The position numbers and the translations under genes are program-made. A DNA stretch of 24,337 nucleotides from a virus, in the IMG/VR virus record IMGVR_UViG_3300021963_000636, positions 1-24,337 of that record; one strand, written 5' to 3'. Positions within the stretch are counted from its first letter, which is position 1; every line of letters begins with the position of its first letter. Positions 12,898 through 22,660 of the stretch are shown one piece after another. The notes under the pieces were generated by a model. It was not told the DNA's origin and did not search any database. It saw only the letters and a list, made by a program, of their open reading frames with translations.

Positions 12898-14052
12898 TTA
12901 AGCCAAGTAGCGCTGAACTTGTGTAGTGGCACGAGGTGTGGTCACCACAGAACCAGTAGTCATACCTGCCAGAACAGCAACACCAGCGGGGTTACGCACA
13001 ATCAATGTGCCTTCCATGATGTACTGATCCAAAGAGGCATCAGCGTTAGAAAACACTTCGTTGTTAGGACCAAGTTCACGCAAAGAACCCCACTGAACAA
13101 CATCAGGGTTCAAGAACAAGATAGAAGTGTTGTCTGCACCGGTCTGATCCATAACCCATGAGTCATCGATCTGGTAGGTGTAGTTGAAGTCACCTTCGTA
13201 TGTACCAATCGTGTCGCCCTTATCAGCAGGGTTGAAACGATTAATAGAACGGCTTTGAGGAATGTTGTCAGAGATAGATGTACGCAACGATGTTGGGACT
13301 ACCATGTTGGTAATCTTGGCATTGAAACGCTGTTCAGCAACAGTCACCAACTGCTTGTACAGCACAGGGCTGAAAGCTTGCAGAGTTTGACCAGAAGAGA
13401 AGCTGAAATAACCCAAACCAGCATTGCTCAACACGCCATTGAAAGGAGTGTTGGTAGAAGTAGTAGAAGTGGTGTCGTTGCTATCAGAAGCAGCCAAGTT
13501 CAGAACGGCAGTACCAGAAGTTGGGTTGCCTGAACGTGTACCTGCAAAAGAGTACAAAGAACCAAAACGACGACCATTGTTGGGTGAAGAGCCTTGGGTA
13601 GCGGCTTGACCAGAGTACTTGATAGAAGCGCCATCGGCACGAACCATCTGCAACTCAACATCAAACATAATCTCGGTCAATTGCTTGACTTCTTGATATG
13701 CTTGTGGATCACCACCGGCTTGTTCAACAGCACGAGCAGTACCTGTAGCACCAATCACAGTTGTAAAAATCTGTGTGTAGTTACCGCAGTTAGCACGGGT
13801 GTTAGAAGCAGCGGCAGTTGAATCAACAGATGCACCTTCCAACTTAGCATTCAATGCTGGAGTACGGAAGTAATCGTTGGGCCAAATGTGCAAGGTTGAA
13901 TTGATCTTGCGTTTTTTGCTCATAGCCATGTTAGTAATCGGTGTACGATCTTTAACATAGTTAGAAACAGTCATATCGAGGTCTTTAACCACGATGTCGG
14001 TAGCATAGGCGCCATTGCCGTTACCGAGGGATGTACTTGTAATCGTTGCCAT
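12898..14052 (-). CDS. Major capsid protein (DUF5309/SU10-type, HK97 fold)
   Basis: This 384-residue protein forms the icosahedral shell. Motifs of the DUF5309/SU10 capsid group are visible: an N-terminal region leading to RTPITNMAMSKKRKINSTLH at residues 36-55, a HIWPNDYFRTP strand, then NYTQIFTTVIGATGTARAV and an EQAGG...QEVKQLTEIMFDVE helix (about 90-135, the spine-like helix). An insertion of Ser/Thr/Gly-rich sequence follows near 165-215. The C-terminal part has VVPTSLRTSISDNIP and LRELGPNNEVFSNADASLDQY. It has the best ribosome binding site of the window (CAGGAGAATTATT-ATG), follows the scaffold by 15 bases and is followed by a strong hairpin, all consistent with very high expression. 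Confidence 0.88.
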   Translation of the reverse strand: MATITSTSLGNGNGAYATDIVVKDLDMTVSNYVKDRTPITNMAMSKKRKINSTLHIWPNDYFRTPALNAKLEGASVDSTAAASNTRANCGNYTQIFTTVIGATGTARAVEQAGGDPQAYQEVKQLTEIMFDVELQMVRADGASIKYSGQAATQGSSPNNGRRFGSLYSFAGTRSGNPTSGTAVLNLAASDSNDTTSTTSTNTPFNGVLSNAGLGYFSFSSGQTLQAFSPVLYKQLVTVAEQRFNAKITNMVVPTSLRTSISDNIPQSRSINRFNPADKGDTIGTYEGDFNYTYQIDDSWVMDQTGADNTSILFLNPDVVQWGSLRELGPNNEVFSNADASLDQYIMEGTLIVRNPAGVAVLAGMTTGSVVTTPRATTQVQRYLA

Positions 14053-15523: not shown

Positions 15524-17695
15524 CTAATCTATTTCAACGGCACTAAGTTTACCCCTCTTAGCTGCCAAACTTTCAAAGTAATTGTCCATATCAATATCTT
15601 CGGCTTTTTTCATATTCAAAGCAGTTATTGATCCGCTTTCCTGAACTTTAGCTTGATTCAAAGCCACCTTAGATTGCATTTCTTGTTGTTCAGCAGATGG
15701 ACCTTTTGCCGCTTGAGCTTGCATAATCTTGACTGCTTCTTCCATGGTTGGCAAATAAGCATCAACATCTTTAACACCCAAAACACGCAAAGTATCTTCA
15801 AAAGGTCTACGAACCTTGATAAACATTTCAGGCACTTCTTGTGGCACTTGCATCATGGCTTGAGCAAATTGCTGTTGTGCTTGAAGAATCATTTGTTGGC
15901 GTGTCAGGCGGTTTTCTTCAGACAAGAAACCCAATGCTAAATCAATGTTAATCATTTTGCGGTCAATAAACTCAAAGTTTTCAACCGACAAAGCATCCAT
16001 AAATGGTTGGCCTTTAAGACAAGTGCCAGCCAATTGCTGAATGTTGTAATCATCAGAATATTGGATCAATGTTTTCCAAGTAATGTAAATTACATCACGC
16101 AAACCAATGGCGCAGTTCTTGACCATTTCATCTTGGATCAACTGGTTAGGACCCATAGCCAATTGAAGTTTAAAGCCTGAATTACCATCTTTCATAACTT
16201 CAGGATTAAGCGTATCGCTTGGGCTAGTCATACCAATCATTGCCATTTTGTCCGATTCAAATCGGTTCATGGCTGATTCCACATATGCCAAATTACCTTG
16301 CATAGGTTGGAATTCAAAAATGTGTTTGGTGGGATCAAACTTACGATCCAAAATAAACATGGCACTTACGCCACGTTGAATTTCTTCGGCATCCAAAAAT
16401 TCTGGATTAACACCAATGCGAGGTGTAGAAGATTGCATGGCAAAAGACATTTCAGCCCTGCGGATTGCCGTTGCATATTCTTGAAGCGGAACCAAACGTT
16501 CACCCAATGAATAACCAAAAAAGTTACCTGTAATGGGTTTGGGGCACATGTTTGCCAATGGGATAAAATCCACTTCCTTGGCATACAGAATGTATGAACC
16601 TGAGAAACAGCATTCCACAATCTCTTCTTCGCCATCATCATCAATGTCTCTGCGAATCCAAGCAGTAGTCAACATGATGACTCGGCTGTAGCGGTCTGCA
16701 CCTTGAGAGGCAATTACGCCTTGGCCTGGCACTGGCGTAGAGTCACGAGCATGAAGCGCCAAATCATTTTCTAAAGCGCCAGCTTGGTAAGCACCCGCAG
16801 GTCCATAAGCCGCATGGTCAGCCAACAACTCTAAATCTACAAATGGGAATTGAGTTTTGCACTCATGGATGGTCATAGGGTCATAAAACCCTACAAAGTC
16901 TTGTTCTTGAATGGTAGAAATGGTTGGGTTACACACAAAATAATGTTGTGCAACATGTTTGATTTTGATGCTAGTTTCGTAACCAGTTAACTTGTACTTA
17001 GCACGATAAATAGTATTTTTACGCAATGCTTCTTGCAGTTCATCACCACTGGGTTCTTGCATTTGCTCATTTTCATCAGGAGCCATGGCCTCTTGCATAG
17101 CACCTTGCAAATCAACATCGATCTTACGCATGTCTTGGCGTTTAGCAGTCAACCCTTTTTCACCTGCCAAAGTTTCAAACACACGCAATTGATCTCGGGT
17201 TCCTTCAACTTCTTTGTATTGGGTAATAGGGTTACGCACAGGAGAAACCATCACAATGCCGTTTTTATGCAGCAATGAATCTTGTGCCCAATCACGAATA
17301 ACTTGGTAAGAATCGTTCTTACTGTTAATCATGTATTTGACCATTTCAGTGGCTTGACGAGCTTGGTCGCCATCCATTTCACTGAATCGTTCAAATTCAA
17401 AATTAACTTTGCCGTTTGGCATCAAACATTTGGTGATAACCGCTGTGGCGTAGTCAATGCCAGGCGCAACAATTGGTTGAATGTAGTCAATACCATGAAT
17501 TGGTTCTGTGGAATTTGATACAGGAATGTTAAGGTAATGGTAATCTGTAAATCGATTGTATGTATTCTTGGACTGTGTAAGTCTCAAGTAATCTACCATT
17601 TTTACATAAACTTCATGGCAAACTTGCTCGGTCAGGCCACGATCACCAGAAGGCGATTCAAGGCTCTCTACGATTACATTTTGTTTATCCAGCAT
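15524..17695 (-). CDS. Portal protein, P22-type
   Basis: This 723-residue protein is the size of P22-like portals. It forms the twelve-part ring at one capsid vertex through which DNA is packed and released. Visible family signs: an N-terminal helical region with KNTYNRFTDYHYLNIPVSN, a wing with DWAQDSLLHKNGIVMVSPV (136-153), the acidic RRDIDDDGEEEIVECCF stretch at 348-364 typical of P22-like portals, GYSLGERLVPLQEYATAIRR at 394-413, and a Gln/Ala-rich helical C-terminus (about 620-700) that would form the barrel. The start follows AAAGGATTTAAT and lies one base after the terminase stop. Confidence 0.9.
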   Translation of the reverse strand: MLDKQNVIVESLESPSGDRGLTEQVCHEVYVKMVDYLRLTQSKNTYNRFTDYHYLNIPVSNSTEPIHGIDYIQPIVAPGIDYATAVITKCLMPNGKVNFEFERFSEMDGDQARQATEMVKYMINSKNDSYQVIRDWAQDSLLHKNGIVMVSPVRNPITQYKEVEGTRDQLRVFETLAGEKGLTAKRQDMRKIDVDLQGAMQEAMAPDENEQMQEPSGDELQEALRKNTIYRAKYKLTGYETSIKIKHVAQHYFVCNPTISTIQEQDFVGFYDPMTIHECKTQFPFVDLELLADHAAYGPAGAYQAGALENDLALHARDSTPVPGQGVIASQGADRYSRVIMLTTAWIRRDIDDDGEEEIVECCFSGSYILYAKEVDFIPLANMCPKPITGNFFGYSLGERLVPLQEYATAIRRAEMSFAMQSSTPRIGVNPEFLDAEEIQRGVSAMFILDRKFDPTKHIFEFQPMQGNLAYVESAMNRFESDKMAMIGMTSPSDTLNPEVMKDGNSGFKLQLAMGPNQLIQDEMVKNCAIGLRDVIYITWKTLIQYSDDYNIQQLAGTCLKGQPFMDALSVENFEFIDRKMINIDLALGFLSEENRLTRQQMILQAQQQFAQAMMQVPQEVPEMFIKVRRPFEDTLRVLGVKDVDAYLPTMEEAVKIMQAQAAKGPSAEQQEMQSKVALNQAKVQESGSITALNMKKAEDIDMDNYFESLAAKRGKLSAVEID

Positions 17696-17696
17696 A

Positions 17697-19289
17697 TTAA
17701 ATCCTTTGGACTTTGCCTTCAGGCAATTCTATGCGCCTAAAAGCAAAGTTGTTTGCCCTGCTAACTATAGCTTCACCATGACCTTGAATCAAAGCTAATA
17801 TTCCAATACGGGCAGAGTCAATATGATCATCTGGATCAGAAAACTTACCTGCATCGTCAATGGCATAATTTCTAGCTTCATCAAGAAATCCCTTACATGT
17901 TTCGTTAATCATAAAAGATTTACGCTCCATGCCCATACGCATTATATTGATTCCATAAGCCTTATGGTTTGTTACTTTGCCTTGATCATTAGGTGGGTTT
18001 AATATAGCACCTGCAATGCAGTTTAGTCCATAGGAATCTTCAAAGACTTCTCGAACTGACTGTTCTGTCAATGTATACCGCCCTGCCAAACCCGCATCAT
18101 GGGGTAGGGCAATAGGCACATCTCTAGATTCCCTGTCCAACAAATAGTGAACATATTCGTCAGGGGTTTCCCCGCTAGGAATAGTTATTTGCTTATGTAA
18201 ATAGATGGTATCTTGCACAGAATCTCGGAAAAAGAAAGAAATTACTGTTGGGTCATTCTTAATTCCCAAGTCAAAGCTAATTAAACGCTCAAGTTTCTCA
18301 TTGTTTTTAAGGTCAATGTCTTCAGTTTTGTAAGTAGGCCATTCCAACAATGGGAAAACCACACCTTTGCCAACCAAAGGAATACCATTTATACGGCATT
18401 CTCTTTCCCAAGGCATAAAGTCTCGGGATAATTGTTCTCGTTCTTTTTTGGAAAAAAATGCTTCTCCCCATTCATTGGTGTATGGTATATCGTCCCAAGT
18501 AACCCTGACATGGGCATAGCCGTCAACACTGTCCCAGAACTTTCGGACAAGTCCCGACATACCTTTAAGCGGAGTAAACGAACAGATAACTTGCCCGTTT
18601 CGGGCCGCTGTACGAACAACAAGTTCTGAGAAAGTCTCATCTGGTGGTTGCTCATCAAGAACCACAAGGTCCAACTCAAAGCCTTGCAAATGTCTGACTT
18701 GTTGGGTGTAATTGGAGAAGTAAAGCTTAGACTTTCCTCCAGACTCATGCCAAACTTCAATGGCAAGGACATTGGCTCCATCTGTTCGGATTGATTTGTC
18801 ATCAATGCACTCCCTTGGAATAGAGCCAGTACCCAACTTATAACTTTGTTTAATATCGTCACAGCCCAACAATTTGGATTGCAAAGTCTTTGCAACTTGT
18901 TCCCATGATTCACCTGAACACATGGCAATAATGGGTTTATCCCACCGCACTCCAGTCCAACCTTTAGGATACCGGCCTGTCACATGATAAGCGGTTTCAT
19001 AAGTTGATGCGATTGTTTTTCCGGCACGATTGGCGGCAATCATTCCCCTGCGGGAATATTTAGCACCCATGTCAAAGAATTTTTGTTGATACTTAAATGG
19101 CTTGAACCACTTTAAAGTATTGAACTGCATATCTTGAGCAAGCTTGTCTCTAGCAATTTTCATTGCTTTGAGTTGCTCAGAATCAAGGGTTTTAATTACT
19201 TCTTTGCCACCGGCAAGTTTGACCAAATGCTTTATTGCTCTATCTTTGTAGAGTGGCAATATGTAATCACTGGCTTCACTTTTTGCCAT
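17697..19289 (-). CDS. terL: Terminase large subunit (ATPase and nuclease)
   Basis: This 530-residue motor protein pumps DNA into the procapsid and cuts it. The ATPase half has Walker A ANRAGKT at 86-92, Walker B LDLVVLDE at 206-213 with the catalytic Glu213, and a coupling-type motif ICSFTPLKG at 235-243. The nuclease half has the acidic residues expected of an RNase H-like fold: SFDLGIKNDPTV (Asp340), LPHDAG (Asp398) and DPDDHIDSARI (Asp488/Asp491). Length and domain order are normal. Its ATG overlaps the end of the small upstream gene by 14 bases, and it directly precedes the portal. The ribosome binding site is weak, so coupling to the preceding gene is likely. Confidence 0.95.
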   Translation of the reverse strand: MAKSEASDYILPLYKDRAIKHLVKLAGGKEVIKTLDSEQLKAMKIARDKLAQDMQFNTLKWFKPFKYQQKFFDMGAKYSRRGMIAANRAGKTIASTYETAYHVTGRYPKGWTGVRWDKPIIAMCSGESWEQVAKTLQSKLLGCDDIKQSYKLGTGSIPRECIDDKSIRTDGANVLAIEVWHESGGKSKLYFSNYTQQVRHLQGFELDLVVLDEQPPDETFSELVVRTAARNGQVICSFTPLKGMSGLVRKFWDSVDGYAHVRVTWDDIPYTNEWGEAFFSKKEREQLSRDFMPWERECRINGIPLVGKGVVFPLLEWPTYKTEDIDLKNNEKLERLISFDLGIKNDPTVISFFFRDSVQDTIYLHKQITIPSGETPDEYVHYLLDRESRDVPIALPHDAGLAGRYTLTEQSVREVFEDSYGLNCIAGAILNPPNDQGKVTNHKAYGINIMRMGMERKSFMINETCKGFLDEARNYAIDDAGKFSDPDDHIDSARIGILALIQGHGEAIVSRANNFAFRRIELPEGKVQRI

Positions 19290-20961: not shown

Positions 20962-21483
20962 TTAAACTTTACGAAGAGAATCAAGAAACTCATTTAACGC
21001 ATCATCAGCATCACCCTCATCTTCCCTAGTCACATTTTGAATGTGTTCTACAGAAATAATAGGGGCACGACTAGATTCAAACGGAGCCAGTTTATCAGCA
21101 ATCTTGGCTTTGTCTTTAATATCCAACTCATCAGACTGCATGGCATCAATCAAAACTTCCATGGCAGTTTTCAGGGGTGGCAGACCACGGGATGTACGTT
21201 CATCATTGAGTTTGTTAAACAAAGCGCCATACTCGGTTACTTTGTTAACAATGGATTTTGGGCGACCACCAAGGTTAGTTTTTTGTGATCTAGGCACAAA
21301 GCTACTGAGGTCATATTCATCTTTGGGTTGTTCAGGTTCTGGTGCTTCTTTAGGCTCAATCTTGCCTGTAGCCAGTTTCATGGCTTTTTTCTCAGCTCGT
21401 TTAGCTCTGCCATATTCACGAGCTTTTCTCTTGAGTTCAGCAGAAGAGACAGTAGAGCCTTCGGGTCTTATTTCTTCAAACAT
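20962..21483 (-). CDS. Candidate terminase small subunit
   Basis: This 173-residue protein has a basic helical N-terminus (ELKRKAREYGRAKRAEKKAMK), an acidic Pro-rich linker, then GGRPKSIVNKVTEYGALFNKLN and a helical stretch LKTAMEVLIDAMQSDELDIKDKAKIADKLAPFE (split near residues 100-135) that looks like the helical core of some small terminases. The end is acidic (EDEGDADDALNEFLDSL). The small terminase recognises the packaging start and regulates the large one. Position upstream of terL supports the call, although seven genes from this one onward in the operon lie before or at terL, which is looser than usual. It overlaps the preceding gene by 16 bases. A DNA-binding head protein is possible. 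Confidence 0.5.
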   Translation of the reverse strand: MFEEIRPEGSTVSSAELKRKAREYGRAKRAEKKAMKLATGKIEPKEAPEPEQPKDEYDLSSFVPRSQKTNLGGRPKSIVNKVTEYGALFNKLNDERTSRGLPPLKTAMEVLIDAMQSDELDIKDKAKIADKLAPFESSRAPIISVEHIQNVTREDEGDADDALNEFLDSLRKV

Positions 21484-21971
21484 TCCATACCCTTTTCAGT
21501 TCTAATCCACCCATACGATCCATTGACACTGAACCCACGCTTTTGGTGAATTCTCATAAATCCATCATGCTCGGCACGAATAGAAGTTGAACATACTACA
21601 GGAATACTCCAAGTATGTGCCCACAGTATATGTTGGTCAATCATCTCATTAATTAACTTTACTCGCAACCGAGGACTTAAAGTAAGGTCAACATGGTGAA
21701 ATTTGGCATTGCTGATTTCTTCATTGGCATAGGTTGTATACCCACCCCTGTCAAACCAACAGTAGCCAAGCAGCTTTTCACCATTACGGCAAACAGCAAT
21801 GAACTCTCTACTCTTGTCAAACAGTTGAACAGTAGTAGCGATAGTGACATTTTTGCGGAACACTCCTTTGTCCCTAGTCAATATGCCATCAGCTTCAGTA
21901 CCAAATACTAAGTCTGCCATGTCCACAATATCGTCCACATCATGCAGCGGGTGTGCCAATGTCCATTCCAT
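21468..21971 (-). CDS. GNAT-like acetyltransferase-fold protein, first gene of the leftward operon
   Basis: This 167-residue protein has the strand/helix order of a GNAT domain: an N-terminal helix pair, FIAVCRNGEKLLGYCWFDRGG (about 77-97, central strands), HHVDLTLSPRLRVKLINEMI (about 112-131, the acetyl-CoA helix region) and FMRIHQKRGFSVNGSYGWIR (about 138-158, the last motif). The usual R/Q-x-x-G-x-G/A pyrophosphate loop is replaced by LSPRLRV, so catalysis is uncertain. GNAT-like proteins of unknown use occur near head genes in T7-like and other podoviruses. The ATG has AGGAATAGC upstream; it opens the operon after about 1 kb of non-coding DNA. Confidence 0.55.
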   Translation of the reverse strand: MEWTLAHPLHDVDDIVDMADLVFGTEADGILTRDKGVFRKNVTIATTVQLFDKSREFIAVCRNGEKLLGYCWFDRGGYTTYANEEISNAKFHHVDLTLSPRLRVKLINEMIDQHILWAHTWSIPVVCSTSIRAEHDGFMRIHQKRGFSVNGSYGWIRTEKGMECLKK

Positions 21972-21982
21972 GCTATTCCTAT

Positions 21983-22095
21983 GTTAAGTGTTGGAACTCA
22001 ATTCGGTCTTTGTCTAGGCAAGATAGAAAGCCAGAAAACATCTTGCGTCAACATCCTTGAATGCTGGCTTAACGCTCCAACACCCTAATTCTATC
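21983..22095. other. Interlocking inverted repeats with pseudoknot topology
   Basis: Three perfect inverted repeats interlock: GTGTTGGA (21988-21995) with TCCAACAC (22076-22083); GCAAGAT (22018-22024) with ATCTTGC (22040-22046); AAGCCAG (22028-22034) with CTGGCTT (22064-22070). The last two cross (order A-B-A'-B'), the layout of an H-type pseudoknot with loops of 3, 5 and 17 bases, and the first encloses both. GATAGAA (22022-22028) can also pair with TTCTATC (22089-22095). No gene is here. It may be a structured leader RNA, a small RNA or part of an origin. Confidence 0.55.
22023..22051 (-). promoter_or_regulatory. Candidate sigma70-type promoter for the leftward late operon
   Basis: On the minus strand TTGACG (-35, 5 of 6 to consensus) is followed after 17 bases by TTCTAT (-10, only 3 of 6). 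Transcription would begin near 22015 and give a leader of about 45 bases before the GNAT-like gene. The site sits inside the interlocking inverted repeats, so a protein or structure there could regulate it. The poor -10 suggests an activator or a phage sigma factor, or a false match. Confidence 0.35.
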
Positions 22096-22098
22096 CAG

Positions 22099-22157
22099 AA
22101 AAAGTTTTAAACAAAAATTTTTATACAGGATTTTTTATACAGAGTTATCCACAGGAT
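22099..22157. other. Candidate replication origin: AT-rich element, short repeats and DnaA box
   Basis: Positions 22099-22144 are almost pure A/T. TTATACAG occurs at 22121-22128 and 22135-22142, followed at once by TTATCCACA at 22145-22153, a perfect match to the bacterial DnaA box consensus TTATNCACA. The three elements are spaced 14 and 10 bases apart, like iterons. An AT-rich unwinding stretch beside a DnaA box, in a divergent intergenic region beside large dyads, is what a host-assisted phage origin would look like. One DnaA box alone is weak evidence. Confidence 0.45.
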
Positions 22158-22191
22158 ATTCTATTGCTATAGGTAAAAACCCTAATAGAAT
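22158..22191. repeat. Perfect 8-bp inverted repeat beside the DnaA box
   Basis: ATTCTATT (22158-22165) pairs with AATAGAAT (22184-22191) across 18 bases; an inner AGG/CCT pairing is also possible. It lies 4 bases after the DnaA box and includes one ACCCTAA word (22179-22185), so it may be part of the same origin or control element. Confidence 0.45.
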
Positions 22192-22486
22192 GAACTCGGG
22201 ACCATCATCCAGTCCTTGGGAAGGCAGGTAGCTTACCAACCCAGATAAACGTACCGAATCCATCGGTCTCTCTAGTAGGCAACGAACGGGAACATACAGG
22301 TGGAACGAGTCGCAAGACGAGTAGGTTAGATAAACAAGGTGCTACTTCTTCAAAGAAGAAAAAAAACAGTGGATGCCATAGTTCGTCCACAGTTAACCAA
22401 ACTAAGACTTACACAATCCCATCAGTACTAACAATCAATTAACCAGTGTTGTTTGTATGCAACAGGAAAAGTTTTAGAGAAATTTT
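22192..22486. other. Non-coding stretch with small hairpins only
   Basis: No convincing gene is seen on either strand. Short hairpins occur: ACCGA/TCGGT (22253-22267), GTC-GCAA-GAC inside a repeated ACGAGT word, TTCTTC/GAAGAA followed by a run of eight A residues (about 22348-22368), GTGGA/TCCAC (22369-22390) and TGTTG/CAACA (about 22447-22464). The block 22465-22486 (AAAAGTTTTA then AAATTTT) resembles the AT-rich element near 22099-22120. The reverse frame 22205-22390 is judged spurious. Confidence 0.4.
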
Positions 22487-22660
22487 GGGAATGGGGGAGT
22501 GGGCCCCCCCTTTCCAATCCTTTTCCAGTCCTACCCCCCCCACAACTACCAGGCAAATAGGCAAAGCATAGGGGGGTTTTAATGACCAGCGGGTCAGTTT
22601 AGCTACTGACTGAGGGGTCAGTAATAAGGGGAAACAAGGGGCCCACTCACTTTCCCGATT
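22487..22660. other. Nested inverted repeats with G and C runs
   Basis: GAGTGGGCCCC (22497-22507) is exactly complementary to GGGGCCCACTC (22638-22648), an 11-bp stem with 130 bases between its arms and imperfect flanking pairing (GGGAA..., TTTCC). Inside it, a run of eight C after A (22533-22541) can pair with GGGGGGT (22571-22577), and two further dyads lie at 22583-22623. The composition changes abruptly from AT-rich surroundings. It could be a folded replication or packaging site or a structured RNA. Confidence 0.55.
22583..22623. promoter_or_regulatory. Two adjacent dyads sharing GGGTCAGT, possible operator pair
   Basis: TGACC-AGCG-GGTCA (22583-22596) and TACTGAC-TGAGGG-GTCAGTA (22604-22623) are perfect inverted repeats placed about 24 bases apart centre to centre, and both contain GGGTCAGT in the same orientation. 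Two dyads about two helical turns apart suit a pair of repressor dimers, but they are also part of the larger fold around them. Confidence 0.4.

Follow-up and report, generated by a model that had tools for sequence, protein, structure and literature searches.

GOLLD and ROOL are structured noncoding RNAs of phages and prophages, which are often found near tRNA islands and whose function is unknown (PMC12286853). They are the nearest known kind to the RNA described here, which we term RNA-B, and some RNA-B copies are likewise phage-borne near tRNAs. However, this likeness concerns the setting and not the family: GOLLD and ROOL are several hundred nucleotides long and form cages, whereas RNA-B comprises ~95 nt, has another fold and also occurs inside ordinary operons. 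Moreover, the GOLLD and ROOL family models gave no match on the window, i.e. the whole stretch of DNA analysed here (an entire IMG/VR record of viral DNA, 24,337 bases long, from an SU10-like podovirus), nor on 34 related loci. RNA-B also occupies the same kind of slot as the tRNA genes of phage tRNA islands, with tRNA-Asn/Thr in relatives of the window and one copy (L179) between two tRNAs, but it is not a tRNA, as there is no ARAGORN or Rfam match and no cloverleaf.

In the twister ribozyme, the helices follow the order P1-P2-P3 and the terminal loop pairs back to the internal loop between P1 and P2. The put RNA of HK022 consists of two simple stem-loops acting in cis, and antitoxins of the ToxI type are pseudoknotted small RNAs acting in trans. 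With the latter and with RNA anti-CRISPRs (Racr; PMC10651486), RNA-B would share the character of a small phage-borne or phage-relevant trans-acting RNA. It does not qualify as a type III antitoxin (ToxI), being single-copy per contig (15 tested) and free of tandem repeats, and no toxin gene was found among its annotated neighbours, which are terminase, replication and lysis genes.

Results

The interval 21983-22095 of the window contains an 8-bp perfect inverted repeat (21988-21995/22076-22083) that encloses two perfect inverted repeats of 7 bp (22018-22024/22040-22046 and 22028-22034/22064-22070), which cross each other in H-type order. All three are exact at the positions given in a preliminary description of the sequence, and its judgement that such complementarity is unlikely by chance is borne out, as the site is far above dinucleotide shuffles: four or more perfect repeats of at least 7 bp occurred in none of 5000 shuffles of the interval (shuffle mean 0.25), any crossing pair in 0.42% of 5000, and no shuffle of the 5000 set such a pair inside an 8-bp repeat. 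Along the contig, the nested-plus-crossing arrangement was present in 2 of 2423 windows, both covering this site. Together with the covariation presented below, the shuffles rule out a chance origin of the repeats. A fourth 7-bp repeat (22022-22028/22089-22095), which had been proposed as an alternative pairing, is also present exactly, but it is not conserved in relatives and lies within the promoter, where it takes in the -10 box ahead of the RNA; on these grounds we rejected it as part of the structure. Pseudoknot-blind folding of the site was unremarkable for both strands (z -0.07 and 0.01). The signal therefore resides in the pairing pattern and the comparative data and not in the minimum free energy, and ordinary scans would miss the site.

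Read on the minus strand, positions 22083 to 21988 are one copy of RNA-B, a new family of ~95-nt phage noncoding RNAs. The comparative analysis used three alignments, namely A1 with relatives of the window locus, the narrower A2 and A3 with 81 diverse sequences, and A2 and A3 place the 5' end at ~22083-22081 and the 3' end at ~21988. The copy in the window matches the covariance model of the family with 105.8 bits (E 7e-27); the model's 80 sequences include this copy. The fold itself is close to certain: a rod of the helices P1, P2, P2b and P3 is locked by an H-type pseudoknot, P4, between the loop of P3 and the strand between P1 and P2.

All arms lie on the minus strand. In P1, 22075-22083 pairs with 21988-21996, the last pair being G-U, and covariation is complete with 7 of 7 counted pairs changed on both sides. 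For P4, the 5' arm AAGCCAG (22064-22070) pairs with CTGGCTT (22028-22034) within the P3 hairpin loop; 99.8-100% of the cells are paired, with compensatory change in 5 of 7 pairs in A2 and 4 of 7 in A3. The 5' arm of P2 (22057-22060) leads into AGGATG (22057-22052) and pairs with 21998-22001, where 3 of 4 pairs covary. The strand at 22005-22008 serves as the 3' side of both the GG/CC pairs (22055-22056 with 22005-22006) and P2b (22050-22051 with 22007-22008). The pairs of P2b, which is detectable only in the broader sequence set, are 100% paired and covary in A3 as UA/GC/CG at one position and CG/UG/UA/AU at the next. Finally, P3 joins GCAAGAT (22040-22046) and ATCTTGC (22018-22024) and is 99.2% paired, with covariation in all six counted pairs in A3.

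Over all helices of A3, 97.3% of the pair cells are paired, compared to 77.8% after shuffling and 30-50% with the partners slid, and double-sided change affects 23 of 29 pairs, four of them in the pseudoknot (483 double-change cells versus 135 expected). A2 gives a similar picture with 97.9% paired and double change in 21 of 25 pairs, and unsupervised mutual information recovers the same helices including the pseudoknot. No change is seen in A3 at three of the P4 pairs, at one pair of P2 or at GG/CC, and these positions provide no evidence either way. Even in window-type relatives both arms change together: on the minus strand, AAGCCAG/CTGGCTT turns into AAGCTCG/CGAGCTT in L020 and AAGACAG/CTGTCTT in L021, and GCAAGAT/ATCTTGC into GCAGGCG/CGCTTGC in L023.

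In the minus-strand reading, G-U outnumbers A-C mismatches by 89 to 14, and by 11 to 0 in the copies antisense to both neighbours. The RNA is therefore the minus strand of the window, and the excess of G-U speaks against a palindrome at the DNA level or the other strand. Thus, of the two options left by the preliminary description, a folded RNA and a structured DNA site, the former holds, and the covariation in homologous regions that it had named as a check is decisive, with compensatory changes in P1, P2, P2b, P3 and P4. The overlap with a promoter ahead of the leftward operon, which it had also noted, holds as well, with the RNA directly after a -10-like hexamer. P2 and P2b were absent from that description, and the reader of the single sequence could not see that the element belongs to a widespread family mostly not tied to the leftward operon.

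AGGATG is kept in 89 of 90 distinct sequences from the scan with the pseudoknot arms (see below), which were not selected for it. The invariant AUG, the near-invariant RAA bulges and the U-rich loop are fixed in place by the fold and probably serve as a binding surface. A small protein starting from the conserved AUG (MLTQ...FWLS) was rejected, as a stop occurs at codon 4 in several copies and stem positions covary (read by eye). We take AGGAUGU to resemble the CsrA binding consensus; a CsrA decoy remains no more than a weak idea, given a single conserved motif of this kind, which overlaps P2. Besides, several copies (L005:875-1009, L358, L399, L415, L438, L448, L458) carry an extra insertion, which in copies such as L358, L399 and L458 takes the form of an added, hairpin-like segment separating P3 from the 3' strand of P2b.

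At least ~190 distinct copies of RNA-B are present in uncultured viral contigs. A scan with a pattern of conserved loop positions yielded at least 119 stretches of viral contigs, and 97 of 100 of these loci among the matches listed were confirmed by the covariance model, which was built from 80 sequences, mostly these very loci, and hence matches them by construction. A second scan was keyed only on the pseudoknot arms, leaving the rest of the RNA unselected; it returned at least 120 stretches and added new pair types. Each of the 15 contigs tested, up to 53 kb, has exactly one copy.

RNA-B was previously uncatalogued, lying outside Rfam 15 and with no copy found in GenBank phages. At gathering score, no Rfam 15 family matches the window, and the only families reaching it in 34 related loci are tRNA and, once, int-alpA, both away from RNA-B; the best lax Rfam matches on 21900-22500 do not overlap it. 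Using blastn against 50,697 GenBank phage records and 72,556 plasmids, we obtained only short partial matches of ~20-37 nt. Of the 88 matches from a pattern scan of ~85,000 prokaryote species, none held up against the covariance model, the top score being 17.5 bits (E 0.18), and 401 genomes of the Variovorax family contained no RNA-B under stricter filters. A description of RNA-B was not found in the literature, with subscription papers and most preprints outside coverage.

Terminase (17697-19289), portal (15524-17695) and capsid (12898-14052) genes of the window all run leftward. Downstream of RNA-B, the first gene of the leftward operon (21468-21971, minus strand) encodes 167 amino acids without a Pfam or PHROG match, and the AGGAA ribosome-binding site of the operon (21976-21980) is located outside P1. 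Directly upstream of RNA-B is the -10-like hexamer TAGAAT (22088-22093, minus strand), which reads TATAAT or TACAAT in relatives (A1); since it ends 4 nt before full P1, a transcription start at P1 is expected. We fetched 80 contigs encoding a relative of the 167-aa gene, and their upstream content differs: about a dozen have RNA-B at the window-equivalent position, some, such as L002, have promoter and ribosome-binding site back to back, and tRNA-Asn/Thr takes the position of RNA-B in L025, L029, L049, L073 and L080. Upstream of the promoter, a second gene-free stretch (22170-22380, minus strand) is strongly conserved in SU10-like relatives and shows apparent compensating changes (ACYGA...TCRGT, GGRCT...GGYCC), possibly representing another RNA or an origin. 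In addition, an AT-rich stretch contains an exact DnaA-box-like TTATCCACA at 22145-22153, which is TGTGGATAA in most relatives.

Among the matches listed, the genes flanking 191 RNA-B instances fall into 126 protein clusters, including small and large terminase subunits, several unrelated ssDNA-binding proteins, DNA polymerases of two types, exonucleases, HNH nuclease and lysozyme. With respect to both flanks, the 174 classifiable copies listed are oriented same/same (100), opposite/opposite (32), opposite/same (29) or same/opposite (13), and 63 of the 100 same-strand operon copies listed lie at most 60 nt from both neighbours. One gene pair, encoding a DUF669 ssDNA-binding protein and a Cas4 exonuclease, carries RNA-B in both orientations. 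In L179, L195, L206 and L266, RNA-B sits precisely in the gap between tRNA-His and tRNA-Tyr, a few nucleotides from each, and tRNA-Arg or tRNA-Met is close to RNA-B in two more contigs. The distance from a -10-like hexamer to the conserved P1 start peaks at 7 nt, a spacing seen in 27% of the copies without an upstream A module (see below), while other spacings reach mostly 0-8% and once 12%; in L199, a GC-rich hairpin lies just downstream of RNA-B. In L153, L204, L214 and L261, RNA-B occupies the whole space between the genes of the small and large terminase subunits, its end lying 2-5 nt ahead of the large-subunit ATG, which has no evident ribosome-binding site. This suggests leaderless translation after processing, or a cis role.

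Many RNA-B copies directly follow another structured module, the A frame (AACACGCATGRRGATT...AGTCYYCAGCCGTGTT; RNA form AACACGCAUGRRGAUU...AGUCYYCAGCCGUGUU). Arrays of A modules and modules of an X frame (GTTGG...CCAAC; RNA GUUGG...CCAAC), mixed with tRNAs and RNA-B, are found in L218:8300-9600 (minus strand), L164, L213, L260, L023, L075 and others, the order in L218 being tRNA-Met, A-like, X, A, X, A, RNA-B, A. Neither module is in Rfam, and these arrays may be more novel still than RNA-B. The A frames number 172, and clustering of their interiors together with the X modules gives 133 clusters (85 singletons), a few of which are common to both frames. Some A or X interiors in L193, L502 and L004 include tRNA T-arm-like or tRNA-like pieces (GGGTTCGATCCCC, GTAGCTCAGTTGGTAGAGC), which ARAGORN did not call as tRNAs in the scanned loci.

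Discussion

Beyond the fold, strand and conservation of RNA-B, our data establish a single copy in each of 15 tested contigs, many genomic contexts and both orientations. From these observations we infer, with moderate confidence, that RNA-B is a stable, independently acting phage noncoding RNA gene that functions in trans; transcript or processing data are lacking and the partner is unidentified. RNA-B would be a stable small transcript, with an adjacent promoter of its own or cut out of a longer transcript in the manner of tRNAs. Like a phage tRNA, it would make use of the transcription available at its site. In the window, this could mean synthesis from the promoter at 22088-22093 together with the leftward late transcript, or processing from the latter. 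The RNA may then act on a conserved partner during infection, be it in regulation, takeover or counter-defence. That the AUG and the RAA bulges are conserved points to a specific partner and, as the phages share few neighbouring genes, we assume a host factor, which is an inference only. A trans role is supported by the 126 neighbour clusters, the antisense copies, the gene pair with both orientations and the tRNA-flanked copies. On the other hand, the 100 of 174 listed copies in same-strand operons also suit a cis element, and the terminase ATG 2-5 nt after P1 hints at a cis role in that operon class.

It is conceivable, though we hold it to be rather unlikely, that RNA-B is a cis-acting leader or intercistronic element for mRNA protection, ribosome access or antitermination of the HK022 put type. 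This would suit the window, where RNA-B is located between the promoter and the ribosome-binding site of the leftward operon, as well as the same-strand operon copies, 63 of which are no more than 60 nt away from each flanking gene, and the class between the terminase genes. However, it does not fit the 32 listed copies antisense to both flanks or the tRNA-flanked ones; the same gene pair carries either orientation, and the downstream genes differ. In the window, an expression platform as in a riboswitch cannot be seen, neither as a terminator nor as a sequestered ribosome-binding site: there is no terminator-like site between RNA-B and the gene, and the ribosome-binding site lies clear of P1. 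RNA-B resembles put as a phage RNA directly after a promoter and, in the window, in its sense position at the operon head, but many copies are antisense to the neighbouring operon, so that this position is not a property of the family.

Self-cleavage, by which RNA-B would act as a ribozyme or processing element cutting phage transcripts or RNA arrays, is merely inferred and appears improbable. The layout resembles twister, with the helix order of its T1 pseudoknot, and invariant unpaired nucleotides as well as the occurrence in multi-RNA arrays would be compatible with such an activity. However, RNA-B is longer and its conserved nucleotides are other ones and are not known to match those of any ribozyme; neither the conserved nucleotides nor the model score of twister are met on the window, no Rfam ribozyme reaches E 10 there or the gathering score in 34 related loci, and neither end has a fixed sequence. 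Only by analogy with phi29 pRNA or primer RNAs could RNA-B be assigned a role in packaging or replication, as an RNA that acts at the phage genome. Despite the single copy per contig (15 tested) and the frequent neighbourhood of terminase, ssDNA-binding protein, DNA polymerase and exonuclease genes we give this little credit, because lysozyme or tRNA genes neighbour other copies, RNA-B is missing from this place in close relatives of the window and the terminases match ordinary terminase families. A DNA-level site such as a recombination hairpin, an origin or an integron-attC-like element, as the inverted repeats, the mobility and the GTTGGGT/GCCCAAC ends of some copies might imply, can practically be dismissed, since G-U pairs are tolerated and A-C largely not, and the P1 ends vary freely in A3 (GGGGCGGC, GTAGAAGC) and do not form the attC core GTTRRRY/RYYYAAC at the stem ends.

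In the context of the arrays, RNA-B might be one module of a combinatorial phage RNA arsenal, a cassette-like system for many trans-acting RNAs, perhaps decoys for host defences. We put this forward as a speculation with limited backing; the interiors of the frames are diverse and recur in different phages, sometimes in both frames.

An abundant and well-supported RNA family with a covarying pseudoknot that is outside Rfam and isolate phages is rare, and RNA-B lends itself, with its exact model, to direct tests as a small RNA. It indicates a layer of phage biology invisible to annotation pipelines, in which small structured RNAs are carried like tRNAs and swapped between genomes. If the partner of RNA-B is a host factor, the family would offer a new handle on phage takeover or counter-defence.
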